From contig NZ_JAAORD010000001.1 of assembly GCF_017696205.1 (NCBI RefSeq), positions 620,001 to 684,000 of the forward strand: a stretch of DNA of 64,000 bases. The letters run 5' to 3'. The position numbers were made by a program, and so were the translations under genes. This document shows positions 47,343 to 52,264 of this stretch, one piece after another (positions within the stretch are counted from its first letter, which is position 1; each line of letters begins with the position of its first letter). The notes under the pieces are model-generated. The model searched no databases, had not been told where the DNA came from, and saw nothing but the letters and a program-made list of their open reading frames with translations. The stretch comes from Prochlorococcus marinus XMU1402 (GTDB lineage: Bacteria; Cyanobacteriota; Cyanobacteriia; PCC-6307; Cyanobiaceae).

Positions 47343-48533
47343 ATGAGTTTTAAAAAAAATATAAACGATATTAAGAAAAATTATTCCTTAGGAATAATTG
47401 GAGGTGGTCAACTGGCTTTGATGTTAACTGAGGCAGCAAAAAAAAGAGATCTAGAAGTATGTGTGCAAACAAAATCTTGTGATGATCCTGCTGGTTTAAA
47501 AGCAGATCATGTCATAGAAGCTGATCCTTTAAAGATAAGAGGTAATAAATCATTAATTAATGAGTGTGAAAAAATAATTTTTGAAAATGAATGGATAAAA
47601 ATTGATAAATTAAATTTAATTGGCAATAACGATATTTTTGTTCCAAGCCTTAATGCAATTAAGCCATTAGTAGATAGGTTTTCTCAAAAAAAATTAATAG
47701 ACAGAATGAATATTCCCTGCCCAAAATGGATAAGTATTGAAGATTTTAAAAATCTCTCGGATGAGGAAATCAATAATTGGACTTTTCCTCTAATGGCAAA
47801 ATCAAATAAAGGTGGATATGACGGCAAAGGGAACAGAAAATTAAAGACAAAAGAAGATTTAGATTCTTTTTTAACAGAGAATAACTCTAATGAATGGTTA
47901 ATAGAAGAATGGATAGAGTATGAAAAAGAACTGGCTCTTGTTGGTTCTAGAGATAGGACTGGTAAGATAAGATTCTTTCCAATAGTTGAGACGTTCCAAT
48001 CAAACCATGTTTGTGATTGGGTTCTTGCACCTGGAACAAATGAATATGATTTGAACTTATTTGCAATAAATATTTTCTCTTCAGTAGTCAATGAACTTAA
48101 TTACGTTGGAGTTTTAGCTATTGAATTCTTCTATGGAGATAATGGTCTTTTAATTAATGAAATAGCTCCTAGAACACATAACTCAGCTCATTTCTCTATT
48201 GAAGCTTGCACTTCAAGTCAGTTTGATCAATATGTTTGTATTTCTTCTGGGATAATGCCACCTGAAATTAAAATGAACTGTGAAGGTGCAATTATGATAA
48301 ATCTACTGGGGTTAAAAAAGAATTTCCCAATCTCAATGGAAACCAGAATTAAAATGTTATCTGAAATTGAGGGTTCTAATATTCATTGTTATGGCAAATC
48401 TCGCGAAATTATGGGAAGAAAAATGGCTCACGTCACATTTTTATTAACAGGTAAAACGCATTCAGAAAGATATGATGAAGCTCAAATTTTATTAACTATG
48501 GTAAGAGACATTTGGCCATCTCCAAATGCATAA
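47343..48533 (+). CDS. purK: 5-(carboxyamino)imidazole ribonucleotide synthase
   Basis: A 396-residue ATP-grasp enzyme of purine synthesis: LGIIGGGQLALMLTEAAKKRDLEVCVQTK, PLVDRFSQKKLIDRMNIPCP, MAKSNKGGYDGKGNRKL, EEWIEYEKELALVGSRDRTGKIRFFPIVE, INEIAPRTHNSAHFSIEACTSSQFDQ. The 6S RNA gene follows immediately downstream, as in other cyanobacteria. Confidence 0.96.
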   Translation: MSFKKNINDIKKNYSLGIIGGGQLALMLTEAAKKRDLEVCVQTKSCDDPAGLKADHVIEADPLKIRGNKSLINECEKIIFENEWIKIDKLNLIGNNDIFVPSLNAIKPLVDRFSQKKLIDRMNIPCPKWISIEDFKNLSDEEINNWTFPLMAKSNKGGYDGKGNRKLKTKEDLDSFLTENNSNEWLIEEWIEYEKELALVGSRDRTGKIRFFPIVETFQSNHVCDWVLAPGTNEYDLNLFAINIFSSVVNELNYVGVLAIEFFYGDNGLLINEIAPRTHNSAHFSIEACTSSQFDQYVCISSGIMPPEIKMNCEGAIMINLLGLKKNFPISMETRIKMLSEIEGSNIHCYGKSREIMGRKMAHVTFLLTGKTHSERYDEAQILLTMVRDIWPSPNA

Positions 48534-48549: not shown

Positions 48550-48735
48550 TAGATTACTGGATCTTTGGTTAAGTTCTTCTTTATGTGCTCTGATCTGACT
48601 CTCTTTCGACATGAGGAGACTGTCGTGATGCGGTAGTAAACCGATCTTGTAATCGGAAACGAAAGCCCACTTTGAATCCTCTTCTGGCATTTCCAGGTCG
48701 ATGCAGCAGAGAACTGACGGGGATCCGGTGTTACC
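48550..48735 (+). ncRNA. ssrS: 6S RNA
   Basis: An RNA of roughly 180 bases right behind purK, the conserved cyanobacterial location of 6S RNA. The closing stem is visible: ACTGGATC (48556-48563) pairs fully (one G-U) with GATCCGGT (48722-48729). The interior is long, largely self-complementary and not coding. A strong terminator follows at 48733-48784. 6S RNA mimics an open promoter and binds housekeeping RNA polymerase. The exact ends are approximate. Confidence 0.88.
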
Positions 48736-48841: not shown

Positions 48842-48869
48842 TTGACGATTTTTTTAATGTATTTATATT
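48842..48869 (+). promoter_or_regulatory. sigma70-type promoter of DUF1651 locus A
   Basis: TTGACG (48842-48847), 16-base spacer, TATATT (48864-48869). Near-identical elements with the same downstream bases (AATAGTACA) occur before locus B at 51289. Confidence 0.7.
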
Positions 48870-48894
48870 AATAGTACAGATGTATTATTTAGAA

Positions 48895-49194
48895 ATGACT
48901 TTAGGAGGAGCTAATGTTTGGACTAATTTTTCTTACGGTTATCGTAATGAGTCCCCAAGTGGTTGGTTGCTTAGCCCAGACCGCAGCAGATTAATTTTAT
49001 TTATAAGGAATAAAAAATCTCCAAGAAATAGTATAAGAATTTTTGCTCATACATATTATGCAAATAATTTTGGTGAGCCAATGGCAATTAAATCATCCAC
49101 TCAAATGTATTTGGATAATGCTTGGGATAAATGGCATGACCTTCAATTAGAAGGTTGGACTTTTGAAGAACTTGAATTACCTGAATCTGTATGA
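48895..49194 (+). CDS. DUF1651 family protein, copy A
   Basis: About 99 residues; conserved features are SPSGWLLSPD near the N-terminus, LFIRNKK, AHTYYANNFGEPMAI and the C-terminal AWDKWHDLQLEGW. Paralogous to the 51341 gene. I choose ATG 48895 (MTLGGANV) because it aligns with the start of copy B (MTSGVANV); the frame runs five codons further up to ATG 48880. Function unknown. An out-of-frame 26-codon ORF with a much stronger ribosome-binding site overlaps its 5' part. It is followed by two small overlapping genes. Confidence 0.72.
   Translation: MTLGGANVWTNFSYGYRNESPSGWLLSPDRSRLILFIRNKKSPRNSIRIFAHTYYANNFGEPMAIKSSTQMYLDNAWDKWHDLQLEGWTFEELELPESV
48914..48994 (+). CDS. 26-residue hydrophobic ORF overlapping DUF1651 copy A (candidate)
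   Basis: ATG 48914 to TAA, +1 frame relative to the DUF1651 gene, preceded by AGGAGG with 5-base spacing (very strong for this genome). It encodes MFGLIF...VMSPQVVGCL plus a short polar tail, one hydrophobic helix. The paralogous locus has an ORF of identical length and pattern (51360-51440). Expression is not shown; it may be a leader peptide or membrane micropeptide. Confidence 0.5.
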   Translation: MFGLIFLTVIVMSPQVVGCLAQTAAD

Positions 49195-49331
49195 CTAACT
49201 TAAATCCAATCAAAAAGAAATTATCAAAAGTAGATAGAAAGATATCTATGAAAGACCCATCAAAATTATTAGCAGAATTTTTTAATGGTGTTGTAATTGA
49301 ACTTGATGAAGAATATAAATATGACTCATAA
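49191..49331 (+). CDS. 46-residue small protein
   Basis: Starts inside the stop of DUF1651 copy A (ATGA overlap) and overlaps the next gene by 11 bases, so translational coupling is likely. Basic N-terminus (NPIKKKLSKVDRKISMKDPSKL) and acidic C-terminus (IELDEEYKYDS). Not recognised. Confidence 0.55.
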   Translation: MTNLNPIKKKLSKVDRKISMKDPSKLLAEFFNGVVIELDEEYKYDS

Positions 49332-49473
49332 AGAATTGATAGATCAAGTTTCCGCAAATTTATTTAAACAAAGTGGAAAGTTAGAAAGCAGAAGATCTTG
49401 GTTGGCAATGAGAAATTATCTTGAACAATTAGATACCGAACAACTTAAATCCATGCTTAAGGACCACGGATGA
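49321..49473 (+). CDS. 50-residue small protein
   Basis: ATG 49321, overlapping the preceding small gene. MTHKELIDQVSANLFKQSGKLESRRSWLAMRNYLEQLDTEQLKSMLKDHG, a charged helical peptide with no membrane segment. Third member of the DUF1651-A operon. Function unknown. Confidence 0.55.
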   Translation: MTHKELIDQVSANLFKQSGKLESRRSWLAMRNYLEQLDTEQLKSMLKDHG

Positions 49474-49483
49474 TTTAAAAACT

Positions 49484-49597
49484 TTATTTAGTTTTTATTT
49501 TTTTCTTAATTCTTAGAAAACCGTAAGTTGCAATGCCAACCAAAAACATATCCAAGTAAATATGCCAAGTAGGAAAAATCTGGTGTATTAATTCCAT
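49484..49597 (-). CDS. 37-residue single-helix membrane peptide
   Basis: The ATG at 49597 overlaps the stop of the ligase-like gene (TAATG), indicating coupling. MELIHQIFPTWHIY, a membrane helix (LDMFLVGIATYGFL) and a basic tail (RIKKKIKTK). Likely inserted in the inner or thylakoid membrane. Unknown function. Confidence 0.6.
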   Translation of the reverse strand: MELIHQIFPTWHIYLDMFLVGIATYGFLRIKKKIKTK

Positions 49598-50346
49598 TAA
49601 CGTTTTATTGCCACTTGCCAATAAGGATAATCTAAATTTGATTTTTCTCTAATCAATTGTAATTTTCTAGAATTTATTTTTACTACTATTCCATCTGTTG
49701 GATATTTACTAAAAAGCTTCCCTTCTAGCCATTGTTTTCTAAATACTTCAACTTGGCTCGTAAAGTTGCATGAAATATCCTGAGGGATCGTGAAGCCAAG
49801 CTTTGAAAGACTCTTTTTGGACTCATATTGGTTAAGTGTTGAATTAAGTATTTGAAATGCGCTGAAGCTAAGACTTTCAGAAAATCCTTCTTTAGCTCTT
49901 AGAAATCTTGAAGCGATTCTCTGGGAGATATTTGGACTTTGGTTAGGTGCATATAATTCACCTCTAACTTGAAGAACTCCTCGTAAAGGGAGATTATTGG
50001 GAATGTCTTGGACTTTAATAAGTTTATTAGTAACGTCTGCCCCTTTTCTTGAAATTGCTTTCTCCAAGGTTCCATCCCTATATTGCAAAGCAACAGCACA
50101 ACCATCAATTTTCGGTTCTATTAATAATTTGGTATCTACTAATAATCCTTTCAAAAATTCATCTATTGAATCCTTTTCTAATGAAGGTAAAACTAGTTTA
50201 TTTTTCTTTATAAAGTAATCACAATTAGGGTTAGTTCTTAATAAATTTTTTTCAAGTTGGTCGAACTGCTTATCAGAGATTAAAGCATTACCATTTCTAT
50301 AATTATCGTCATACCATTCAATTCGTTTTTCTAGATAAGTCTTCAT
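49597..50346 (-). CDS. minimal NAD+-dependent DNA ligase-like protein (adenylation region only)
   Basis: A 249-residue protein. The first ~45 residues (RIEWYDDNYRNGNALISDKQFDQLEKNLLRTNPN) resemble LigA domain Ia (NMN binding); the rest is the nucleotidyltransferase domain with the adenylated lysine motif EPKIDGCAVALQYRDG, RKGADVTNK, VRGELYAP, DGIVVKINSRKLQ and WQVAIKR. OB-fold, Zn finger, HhH and BRCT domains of the ~670-residue LigA are absent. It could be an accessory nick-repair or other nucleotidyl transfer enzyme. Operon with small membrane proteins on both sides. Confidence 0.8.
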   Translation of the reverse strand: MKTYLEKRIEWYDDNYRNGNALISDKQFDQLEKNLLRTNPNCDYFIKKNKLVLPSLEKDSIDEFLKGLLVDTKLLIEPKIDGCAVALQYRDGTLEKAISRKGADVTNKLIKVQDIPNNLPLRGVLQVRGELYAPNQSPNISQRIASRFLRAKEGFSESLSFSAFQILNSTLNQYESKKSLSKLGFTIPQDISCNFTSQVEVFRKQWLEGKLFSKYPTDGIVVKINSRKLQLIREKSNLDYPYWQVAIKR

Positions 50347-50553
50347 TTAATACGATGGCTTAAGTTTTTGGCTAGGTATCCAACTTGGTTTATCTATAAT
50401 CCATTTTTCTCTATCTTCATATTTAACAGTCCATAAAAGAAATGAAGAAATTTCTTTTAGAGTTATGCCAACCAAATATCTTGTTTTTGGACTTATTAAT
50501 ATAAATCCAAATAATAATATTAATAAAATAAGTTTAAGCATACCTTTAATCAT
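50347..50553 (-). CDS. 68-residue membrane protein upstream of the ligase-like gene
   Basis: One N-terminal hydrophobic helix (MLKLILLILLFGFILIS), then a soluble tail with WTVKYEDREKWIIDKPSWIPSQKLKPSY. The stop abuts the ligase-like start (0-base spacing), so it is co-translated. Unknown. Confidence 0.6.
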   Translation of the reverse strand: MIKGMLKLILLILLFGFILISPKTRYLVGITLKEISSFLLWTVKYEDREKWIIDKPSWIPSQKLKPSY

Positions 50554-50584
50554 TTAAAAACTCAGCGTAATTTTTGCGAACTTT

Positions 50585-50842
50585 TTAATTAATGCAATTC
50601 TTATAACCTTCAATCTTTGCTAGTTCATCAATATTCAAACCTGCTTCTTTTAGTAAAGTTTCTCGTATATCGTCCTTATTAAATTTAGTTAAAGCTCCTT
50701 TAGTAGAGTACTTAATACATTGGTTTTTGTATTTTGCTTCTTTGACAACAGGAAATAAATAAAAACCAAACAAGATAATGAAAGCTCCATAGGTTAGAAC
50801 TTTTCTGTGGTTTTTCCACCATTCATAAAATTTATTGGACAC
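50585..50842 (-). CDS. 85-residue membrane protein
   Basis: MSNKFYEWWKNHRKVLTYGAFIILFGFYLFPVVKEAKYKN gives one helix, then a C-terminal soluble part with two Cys (QCIKYSTKG, YKNCIN) that could pair outside the cytoplasm. Unknown function; same strand as the ligase-like cluster. Confidence 0.6.
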   Translation of the reverse strand: MSNKFYEWWKNHRKVLTYGAFIILFGFYLFPVVKEAKYKNQCIKYSTKGALTKFNKDDIRETLLKEAGLNIDELAKIEGYKNCIN

Positions 50843-50926
50843 GAAAAATAAATCACTATTTTCTATTTTAAATTGACTGTCAACAAATTACTTTAGAAAT
50901 TTAAGGATTGCTTAATTTATTTTTTT

Positions 50927-51148
50927 TTAATTAATAGATTTAACCCAAGCATAATATCTTGATTTTCTAATCCTTTGCTCTTTCGAGACTAATCTATCCG
51001 CTGATTCTAGGGGTGATTCTCCTTTCTCAACTTTTGTTGTAATAGAAATACCAAAACCTTTTGCTTCAATTTTTGCAATGCCGCCCTCTAAAAAAAATAA
51101 AAAAGACCAACCTTTGTTCCATCCTAAATAGAAGGGATTTCGATACAT
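50927..51148 (-). CDS. 73-residue hypothetical protein
   Basis: MYRNPFYLGWNKGWSFLFFLEGGIAKIEAKGFGISITTKVEKGESPLESADRLVSKEQRIRKSRYYAWVKSIN. Aromatic N-terminus, charged C-terminus, ending YAWVKSIN. Not recognised. Divergent from DUF1651 copy B. Confidence 0.55.
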   Translation of the reverse strand: MYRNPFYLGWNKGWSFLFFLEGGIAKIEAKGFGISITTKVEKGESPLESADRLVSKEQRIRKSRYYAWVKSIN

Positions 51149-51288
51149 TGCATTCTTTTGGAGATACTATTTCAATGGTATTTTCCTTTTCAAGGAGTTA
51201 CTTGTATTCACTATTACCAAATAAGAAGTTTACGACTGATTATTTCTGGAAAGTAATTTTAGTATTTAAATAATTACAAGAGGAATAC

Positions 51289-51317
51289 TTGACGTCTTCG
51301 AGTAGTACATTTATATT
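51289..51317 (+). promoter_or_regulatory. sigma70-type promoter of DUF1651 locus B
   Basis: TTGACG (51289-51294), 17-base spacer, TATATT (51312-51317), followed by AATAGTACAAC as in locus A. The 5' flank AATACTTGACG is also shared. Confidence 0.7.
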
Positions 51318-51340
51318 AATAGTACAACTGTATTGTATTC

Positions 51341-51631
51341 ATGACTTCAGGAGTCGCTAATGTTCGGACTTATTTTTATCGTGGCAGCCTTATTGACCCC
51401 CCAACTGGCTGGTTATTTAACAAAAAAAGTGGTTTATTAATTTTTTTTGAGAGTTATAAGAAATCTCTATCTAATAACTTAAAAGTATATACTCATCTTT
51501 TCTATGCAAATGAATTAGGTGAACCAGCCCAAATTAAAAATTCAAGACTTCATTCTATTGAGTGTGCTTGTGAAACATGGAATGAATTAATTTCAGGAGG
51601 TTGGCAAATTGTTACTAATAAATTCCAGTAA
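51341..51631 (+). CDS. DUF1651 family protein, copy B
   Basis: A 96-residue paralogue of copy A: MTSGVANVRTYFYRGSLIDPPTGWLFNKKSGLLIFF..., THLFYANELGEPAQIKNS, CACETWNELISGGW. The shared features GWL, YANxxGEP and W-x-x-L-x-x-x-GW define the family. Followed after 2 bases by a Cys-containing small gene. An out-of-frame 26-codon hydrophobic ORF overlaps its 5' end. Confidence 0.72.
   Translation: MTSGVANVRTYFYRGSLIDPPTGWLFNKKSGLLIFFESYKKSLSNNLKVYTHLFYANELGEPAQIKNSRLHSIECACETWNELISGGWQIVTNKFQ
51360..51440 (+). CDS. 26-residue hydrophobic ORF overlapping DUF1651 copy B (candidate)
   Basis: ATG 51360 to TAA 51440, same length and position as the copy-A ORF. It encodes MFGLIFIVAALLTPQLAGYL plus TKKVVY. 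Compared with copy A, about half the first 20 residues are identical and the remainder are conservative hydrophobic changes, whereas the DUF1651 frame shows radical changes there. A CAGGAG site lies 8 bases upstream. Expression unproven. Confidence 0.5.
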   Translation: MFGLIFIVAALLTPQLAGYLTKKVVY

Positions 51632-51633
51632 AC

Positions 51634-51867
51634 ATGATCAAGGTAAATCCATCAAAATGGGAATATCTAAAAGAATCTACTCTAAAACGAAAACGAACGA
51701 AGATTTGCATTACTTGCAATCACTTTCGCTACAGCACTACAGAAACTTTTGCTACTATCTTGATCTGTCCAAAATACGAAAAACGCATACCACAGGGTGA
51801 TCATTTACTTAAAGGTTGCGAGTATTGGCAAAAAAATAGGACGATATTGTCTCCTGAAGCATCCTAA
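51634..51867 (+). CDS. 77-residue Cys-containing protein
   Basis: Soluble basic protein with ICITCNHFRYS, TILICPKYEKRIPQGDHLLKGCEYW: a CxxC pair plus two later Cys and a His, suggesting a small metal-binding (zinc-ribbon-like) fold. Probably co-transcribed with DUF1651 copy B. The frame with ATG 51609 is an overlapping shadow and is not adopted. Confidence 0.6.
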   Translation: MIKVNPSKWEYLKESTLKRKRTKICITCNHFRYSTTETFATILICPKYEKRIPQGDHLLKGCEYWQKNRTILSPEAS

Positions 51868-52069: not shown

Positions 52070-52140
52070 AAAATCATAAATCAGCATTTTTACTGATTTA
52101 CGTTCTTTATAAGTAAGTCGTAGGTTTAACTTGTTGAATA

Positions 52141-52264
52141 GGAGGGATCTAATGATTGACAGTCCACCAGAGGAGTTAAATTATAAAATTTAAATCTAGA
52201 TAAAACTTAAGCTAAATCTGGAATGGATCTTCTATTTGAGATTCATTCCTTTTTAATTTTTTTC
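52141..52264 (+). other. short transcript candidate: 13-codon ORF with strong ribosome-binding site, then terminator
   Basis: AGGAGG (52141-52146) precedes ATG 52153, opening MIDSPPEELNYKI and TAA at 52192-52194. About 25 bases later is a strong hairpin GGAATGGATCT/AGATTCATTCC (52220-52249) with a T run. It may be a leader/small RNA or a micropeptide. No long gene is linked to it. Confidence 0.45.
52220..52264 (+). terminator. rho-independent terminator
   Basis: 11-bp stem GGAATGGATCT / AGATTCATTCC with one G-U pair and an 8-base loop, followed by TTTTTAATTTTTTT. Confidence 0.75.

Follow-up and report, generated by a model that had tools for sequence, protein, structure and literature searches.

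Nested or overprinted small genes of bacteria yield two proteins from one stretch of DNA by the use of different reading frames, and DinQ of Escherichia coli is an SOS-induced small membrane peptide encoded by a type I toxin-antitoxin locus. Here we describe an open reading frame (ORF) of 26 codons, similar in size to DinQ, which lies out of frame within the 5' region of each of two paralogous DUF1651 (PF07864) genes in Prochlorococcus marinus XMU1402 (contig NZ_JAAORD010000001.1, positions 620,001 to 684,000 of the forward strand; this whole 64,000-nucleotide stretch is called the window). Judged from sequence comparisons, the ORF is likely to be a genuine nested gene encoding a small hydrophobic peptide, probably under SOS control. 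The TisB/IstR-1 system of E. coli shares with it a LexA-type promoter, a hydrophobic peptide of similar size (29 amino acids for TisB) and possibly an antisense RNA, in this case that of PMM0684 of strain MED4, a resemblance that would be one of functional analogy only. Unlike TisB and DinQ, the peptide is encoded in a shifted frame within a conserved protein gene and matches no Pfam family, and a Pfam search with E values up to 1 revealed no sequence relationship of the nested peptides to a known toxin family. The locus also differs from overprinted genes in general, since the more strongly selected frame is not the same in all paralogues and sister groups without the ORF provide natural controls. 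PMC2518516 describes Yfr6 and Yfr9 of MED4 as short peptides encoded by sense/antisense RNA pairs, with one RNA of each pair induced by phage, and proposes these pairs as toxin-antitoxin candidates; they are stand-alone RNAs, whereas the nested ORF overlaps a protein gene and is associated with a LexA-type box. Both host ORFs are members of the DUF1651 family of marine cyanobacteria, which includes PMM0684 and PMM0819 of MED4, and no earlier description of a nested ORF in DUF1651 genes was found in the literature searched.

The elements of the two copies, the second located about 2.4 kb downstream of the first, are the following:

48842..48869, plus strand: promoter-like sequence of copy 1, TTGACG-16-TATATT, 10/12 match, with the -10 block conserved in copy 1 homologues
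48872..48887, plus strand: LexA-type box of copy 1, TAGTACA-GA-TGTATTA, one mismatch to the MED4 consensus
48895..49194, plus strand: DUF1651 copy 1, host ORF, 99 amino acids from the ATG at 48895
48903..48908, plus strand: Shine-Dalgarno sequence AGGAGG of the nested ORF of copy 1; TTTAGGAGGAGCTA is exact in 119/130 homologues
48914..48994, plus strand: nested 26-codon ORF of copy 1, MFGLIFLTVIVMSPQVVGCLAQTAAD, 26 amino acids plus stop
51289..51317, plus strand: promoter-like sequence of copy 2, TTGACG-17-TATATT, a conserved block among homologues
51320..51335, plus strand: LexA-type box of copy 2, TAGTACA-AC-TGTATTG, two mismatches, with an extra upstream half-site TAGTACA
51341..51631, plus strand: DUF1651 copy 2, host ORF, 96 amino acids
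51349..51353, plus strand: Shine-Dalgarno sequence AGGAG of the nested ORF of copy 2, its GGAG sites with few changes among homologues
51360..51440, plus strand: nested 26-codon ORF of copy 2, MFGLIFIVAALLTPQLAGYLTKKVVY, 26 amino acids plus stop, under purifying selection in its own frame

The sequence-only reading of the window had noticed two 26-residue ORFs in the +1 frame behind AGGAGG and AGGAG in both DUF1651 paralogues, and our analysis confirmed them, with each nested start placed 19 nt after the DUF1651 ATG (48895 and 51341). Membership of the host ORFs in PF07864 is well above the curated cut-off of 22 bits, at 40.4 bits (E 3.9e-10) for copy 1 read from 48880, where the source genome has another in-frame ATG, and 50.5 bits (E 2.9e-13) for copy 2. 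The Pfam match starts at the G of the PxGW motif, residue 23 counted from the ATGs at 48895 and 51341. In other genera most DUF1651 profile matches, among the matches listed, begin only at about position 13-21, and the N-terminal extension with the nested ORF is therefore not recognisably conserved there. The Kyte-Doolittle mean of the best 19-residue stretch, calculated from the sequence, is 2.09 for the copy 1 peptide and 1.86 for that of copy 2.

The leader pattern, allowing up to three mismatches, occurred twice in the window and in none of 100 shuffles; it was present in 215/266 genomes of the genus, mostly with two sites each, and a relative of copy 1 in 240/266. When the same DUF1651 protein was recoded 20,000 times with the codon usage of the window, an ATG, a Shine-Dalgarno sequence and an ORF of exactly 26 codons appeared together in 20% (copy 1) and 0.9% (copy 2) of the recodings. 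Recodings as hydrophobic as the actual peptide over its first 13 residues made up 0.03% (copy 1) and 1.5% (copy 2), and those as hydrophobic over its full length 1.4% and 4.7%. Given the frequencies of 20% and 0.9%, the presence of the ORF alone constitutes weak evidence, and the case rests on the homologues. These were taken from the best-listed matches (about 155 of those to copy 1 relatives; the best 80 of 258 relatives), a sample consequently skewed to close relatives of copy 1, with copy 2 mostly from the same regions. The region of the pair came from 80 of the 240 matching genomes, some of them cut by contig ends, and other copies from further search loci. The hidden ORF has a length of exactly 26 codons in 129/130 unique homologues of copy 1 and 124/127 of copy 2. 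Stops or frameshifts that alter its length, which the sequence-only reading had listed as evidence against the micropeptide, are thus confined to 1/130 and 3/127 in these copies, while the third DUF1651 paralogue of the source genome and its close relatives presents the ORF in 0/19. The hidden start is ATG in 125 of the 130 copy 1 homologues (GTG in 2, ACG in 3) and in 125/127 of copy 2. Conservation of the hidden stop was dropped as evidence, since it is fixed by conserved Leu-Ile codons of DUF1651 and is not independent.

Codon-position changes were counted on trees by FastTree and Fitch parsimony in sequences of a single length (128/130 of copy 1, 123/127 of copy 2). The analysis of change effects retained 129/132 sequences of copy 1, 124/141 of copy 2 (the 141 including 13 from other genera), 20/29 of the group of MED4 PMM0684, and 20/22 and 19/19 of two control groups, formed by the third paralogue of MED4 and its relatives (control group 1) and by that of the source genome and its close relatives (control group 2). 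Expected counts derive from a two-rate (transition/transversion) model fitted to the synonymous changes of the same gene, and are therefore approximate.

Copy 2 provides the clearest indication of selection on the peptide. Over DUF1651 codons 8-20, changes at DUF1651 positions 1, 2 and 3 numbered 68/35/21 in 123 sequences, in contrast to 77/48/95 downstream (codons 34-65) and 49/49/97 further on. As DUF1651 position 1 corresponds to hidden position 3, the wobble over the nested ORF sits in the hidden frame. Three subclades comprising 34, 34 and 39 of the 124 sequences (107 together) repeated this phase with 28/10/4, 13/9/4 and 12/6/4, and tree-free allele counts followed it as well (27/15/12). 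In the set of 124 sequences, DUF1651 replacements in codons 8-20 were as frequent as expected (107 observed vs 110), silent changes of the hidden frame were in excess (68 vs 42.9) and changes altering the hidden frame were depleted (59 vs 114). The hidden-frame split of the DUF1651 replacements yielded a binomial p of 2e-7, against 0.50 and 0.61 in two control regions. Of 58 replacements in the hidden frame, at least 37 exchange one hydrophobic residue for another (A>V, V>L, V>M, I>F, I>V and similar). In copy 2, the nested frame and not the N-terminal tail of DUF1651 carries the codon-structured constraint. In the AlphaFold2 model of DUF1651 copy 2, residues 1-11 and 13-16 have a predicted local distance difference test (pLDDT) score below 50 and strands are modelled from residue 23 on; the disordered-scoring N-terminus fits a dispensable tail able to yield to a second frame. 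A Foldseek search with this model produced no match at E 0.001 or better.

Both start codons are conserved. The DUF1651 ATG is present in 130/130 unique homologues of copy 1 and 121/127 of copy 2, two of the other six being merely shifted by indels. Within the three sites of each ATG, copy 2 accumulated 4 changes in the DUF1651 start and 3 in the hidden start, and the GGAG core of the nested Shine-Dalgarno sequence showed 0, 1, 1 and 1 changes, whereas the sites of codons 2-6 averaged 6.3. In three of four copy 2 alleles devoid of the DUF1651 ATG, the DUF1651 domain is truncated as well (Fisher p 5e-5, allele L241 left out of the table), and in these three (L119, L147, L176) the nested ORF is intact. 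Loss of the ATG together with truncation, while the hidden ORF is kept, argues for the first ATG as the real start of DUF1651, and survival of the hidden ORF in the truncated alleles argues for a peptide independent of DUF1651. The alternative offered by the sequence-only reading, a wrongly annotated DUF1651 N-terminus, was rejected in view of the conservation of both starts (4 changes in the three sites of the first ATG vs 6.3 per site) and of the truncation that accompanies loss of the first ATG (3/4).

The frame under stronger selection differs among the paralogues. Copy 1 showed 6 DUF1651 replacements vs 108 expected in codons 8-20, so that the radical change of the DUF1651 frame claimed by the sequence-only reading holds strongly between the two copies but not within copy 1, where this frame is highly conserved. 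Synonymous changes in copy 1 numbered 16 vs 33.8 expected in codons 8-20 and 6 vs 26.4 in codons 8-17, which correspond to hidden codons 1-10. The PMM0684 group (20 sequences) displayed the same phase as copy 2, with 19/7/8 changes at DUF1651 positions 1/2/3 (bootstrap p 0.03; p 0.0004 vs its own downstream codons; binomial p 0.012), together with 18 hidden-frame replacements vs 75.4 expected and few synonymous changes (4 vs 18.1 in codons 8-17; 7 vs 24.6 in codons 8-20). Both frames appear constrained in this group, whose support is less strong than that of copy 2. In the controls, synonymous depletion was not significant, with 23 vs 30.8 and 12 vs 13.9 in codons 8-17 and 35 vs 40.6 and 18 vs 18.5 in codons 8-20 for groups 1 and 2, respectively. 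Control group 1 has lost the nested ATG in 5/22 and the Shine-Dalgarno sequence in 7/22, with the ORF kept in 17/22, and control group 2 has the ORF in 0/19. The constraint hence follows the hidden ORF and not mere closeness to the gene start. The earlier proposal of selection on the micropeptide is thus well supported for copy 2, supported jointly with DUF1651 constraint for the PMM0684 group, and limited to the first ~10 hidden codons in copy 1. A third DUF1651 paralogue of the source genome (C2:41335-41595; loci L008 and L346) has a related box farther from the ATG and is without the hidden ORF.

The LexA-type boxes point to probable LexA/SOS control of the nested gene. The consensus given for MED4 in PMC2921402 is TAGTACA-N2-TGTACTA, and a related consensus with recA and lexA boxes is listed in PMC3091678. 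Copy 1 boxes have one mismatch in 117/130 homologues and two in 13, and those of copy 2 one in 108, two in 18 and three in 1 of 127, the best-scoring box in 16 copy 2 homologues being the upstream one, which ends 22 nt before the ATG. For both copies combined, the best site in the 60 nt upstream has one mismatch in 225/257, two in 31 and three in 1, whereas among 4000 trials with shuffled upstream sequences only 3 reached two mismatches and none reached one. The half-sites are conserved and the spacer is variable; the box has the form TAGTACA-N2-TGTATTA, and its distance to the DUF1651 ATG is typically 7 nt in copy 1 (125/130) and 5 nt in copy 2 (104/127). The source genome has lexA (LexA_DNA_bind match), with the site GGTACAAATGTATTA some 35 nt upstream of that domain match, and its recA-like ORF is preceded by the perfect box AGTACAGATGTACTA; the same box is on record for recA of AS9601. 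Genome-wide matches with up to two mismatches were not used, as they numbered 119 vs 138 in the reversed control.

Two further small genes of the source genome have LexA-type boxes. One (MKVISSSPYAPFN..., L073:1545-1773 and L314; source genome C1:327326-327361) has a box a few nt before its ATG and, in the source genome, two mirrored boxes forming a long palindrome; it could be a new SOS gene. The other (L309:1501-1750, source genome C1:30262, with a relative in L078) encodes a small protein with a hydrophobic stretch (MMKTAVKPN...) and has the box just before the ATG.

Three other explanations of the hidden ORF were weighed against this evidence. A chance ORF, produced incidentally by AT-rich codon use and the sequence of the DUF1651 N-terminus, would account for the 20% of copy 1 recodings that keep the ATG, the Shine-Dalgarno sequence and the ORF, and for third-paralogue groups in which the ORF is decaying (17/22) or absent (0/19). 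Constraint on the DUF1651 frame would not, however, generate the codon phase of copy 2 and of the PMM0684 group, and synonymous depletion was not significant in either control group; chance is already contradicted for copy 2 and is improbable as a general account. An element acting on RNA or initiation, in which the segment from the Shine-Dalgarno sequence to hidden codon 10 would have a regulatory role (as an antisense target, an RNA structure or a site of decoy initiation) while the peptide would be irrelevant, is consistent with the confinement of copy 1 constraint to ~30 nt after the second ATG and with the antisense RNA to PMM0684 reported in PMC2518516. The free variation of hidden third positions in copy 2, with fewer changes at first and second ones, is nevertheless a protein-type signature, at least 37 of 58 hidden-frame replacements there conserve hydrophobicity, and we give such an element little credence.

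A programmed frameshift, in which translation would start at the second ATG, run through ~13 hydrophobic codons and slip back one frame near a CCC run to give a membrane-anchored DUF1651, draws on the switch in copy 2 from hidden-frame to DUF1651-frame constraint near codons 20-21, beside the C run. Indels in two alleles also bring the second ATG into the DUF1651 phase: L241 has a longer C run that places the hydrophobic frame in phase with the domain (MFGLVFIVAALLTPPTGWLF...), being either a natural fusion or an assembly error, and L244, a truncated copy 2 allele, has lost the hidden ORF through a deletion that likewise brings its second ATG into the frame of the domain. On the other side, the DUF1651 ATG is conserved (4 changes), its loss goes with truncation, a coincidence needless under a frameshift, and the nested ORF is kept in three alleles with truncated domains, which likewise argues against a fusion. 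Moreover, 23/123 copy 2 sequences break the C run, with T, A or S at DUF1651 residue 20, and in MED4 PMM0684 the run is no longer than CCC. With the first ATG conserved and the slippery run not, this fusion is disfavoured and seems highly improbable.

Several observations weigh against a genuine nested gene. Counted over the two strands of the region, promoter-like sites were no more numerous than in shuffles, and the Pfam search with both nested peptides at E up to 1 gave no match. The three copy 1 homologues with ACG as hidden start, one copy 1 allele with a stop at nested codon 20, the loss of the nested start in 2/26 PMM0684-group sequences and the indels of L241 and L244, which abolish a separate nested ORF, belong here as well. 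Two of the three alleles L119, L147 and L176 have TTG, a possible start codon, in place of the DUF1651 ATG, and the alleles with a dead DUF1651 are few, some from single cells, and may be recent or assembly artefacts. Hidden codons 14-26 are weakly constrained in copy 2 (24 vs 39.3 expected, p 0.006) and not constrained in copy 1 (55 synonymous changes vs 36.3 expected). The range of codons 8-17 in copy 1 was picked post hoc from per-codon counts, the range 8-20, set by the first half of the ORF, giving a weaker depletion, and the constraint on these early codons could act on RNA instead of on the peptide. In the PMM0684 group, DUF1651 replacements are also rare (27 vs 73.4 expected).

The upstream neighbours of copy 1 are the following:

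47343-48533: purK ORF, gene name taken from the MED4 order
48551-48735: 6S RNA (Yfr7), Rfam E 2.8e-18, directly upstream of DUF1651 copy 1

This gene order equals purK-yfr7-PMM0684 of MED4. According to PMC2518516, PMM0684 and its matching antisense RNA asMED4_07401 rise in mid to late phage infection, and PMC5490813 reports induction of PMM0684 and PMM0819 by phage infection. Locus L070 fits PMM0684 by its position (purK, yfr7, PMM0684) and L018 would correspond to PMM0819 by approximate position only; both carry the hidden ORF. Copy 1 had no match in 50,697 phage records searched for a cyanophage origin. A DUF1651 gene resembling copy 1, with a LexA-type box and the nested ORF, lies close to the end of a contig classed as viral (L410, IMGVR_UViG_2716884731_000001), which is possibly host DNA. 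The source genome appears to be of the high-light kind, and the 80 best of 258 relatives in the DUF1651 alignment, drawn from genome contigs, are Prochlorococcus, P. marinus MIT 9314 and MIT 9401 among them, with a few uncultured Synechococcaceae.

Other features of the region were also recorded. Between both DUF1651 copies, the minus strand encodes a stand-alone adenylation domain of NAD-dependent DNA ligase (49597-50346, 249 amino acids, Pfam E 7e-19). Adjoining copy 2 is a 77-amino-acid ORF (51634-51867) with a Cys pattern (CITC..., CPKY..., GCEYW) and no Pfam family above the cut-off. An Rfam match to Yfr11 at 52133-52257 lies below threshold (33.8 bits, gathering 44).

According to the mechanism that we propose for the nested gene, one mRNA would be transcribed from a promoter overlapped by the LexA-type box and would contain two start codons 19 nt apart. 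Since the box overlaps the expected transcript start, the leader would be too short for a Shine-Dalgarno sequence before DUF1651; the first ATG, close behind the promoter and with no evident Shine-Dalgarno sequence, would open DUF1651, and the second, with its strong AGGAG(G), would open the 26-residue hydrophobic peptide one frame over. The peptide is probably inserted in the membrane, and we infer that the nested ORF is translated in the cell and induced in the source strain. By analogy with SOS membrane peptides of the TisB and DinQ type, it may function in the response to DNA damage or phage. A wider reading is possible but doubtful, namely a LexA-controlled, phage-responsive and toxin-antitoxin-like membrane peptide overprinted in the DUF1651 N-terminal extension of high-light Prochlorococcus, whose paralogues would have split the frames after duplication, with the tail of DUF1651 retained mainly in copy 1, the peptide mainly in copy 2 and both in the PMM0684 group, and with the peptide lost from the third paralogue. 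Together with the antisense RNA, such a nested type I toxin-antitoxin-like module would arrest infected or UV-damaged cells.

The comparisons summarized above indicate that the dominant selected frame is different among DUF1651 paralogues with the nested peptide gene. The locus represents a clean case of gene birth by overprinting, in which the conflict between frames can be measured through paralogues and internal controls without the ORF, and it supplies a candidate SOS membrane peptide, directly testable, in a streamlined genome. If the peptide is real, part of the induction recorded for these genes may stem from it instead of from DUF1651, and knock-outs of the genes would have to be reinterpreted.

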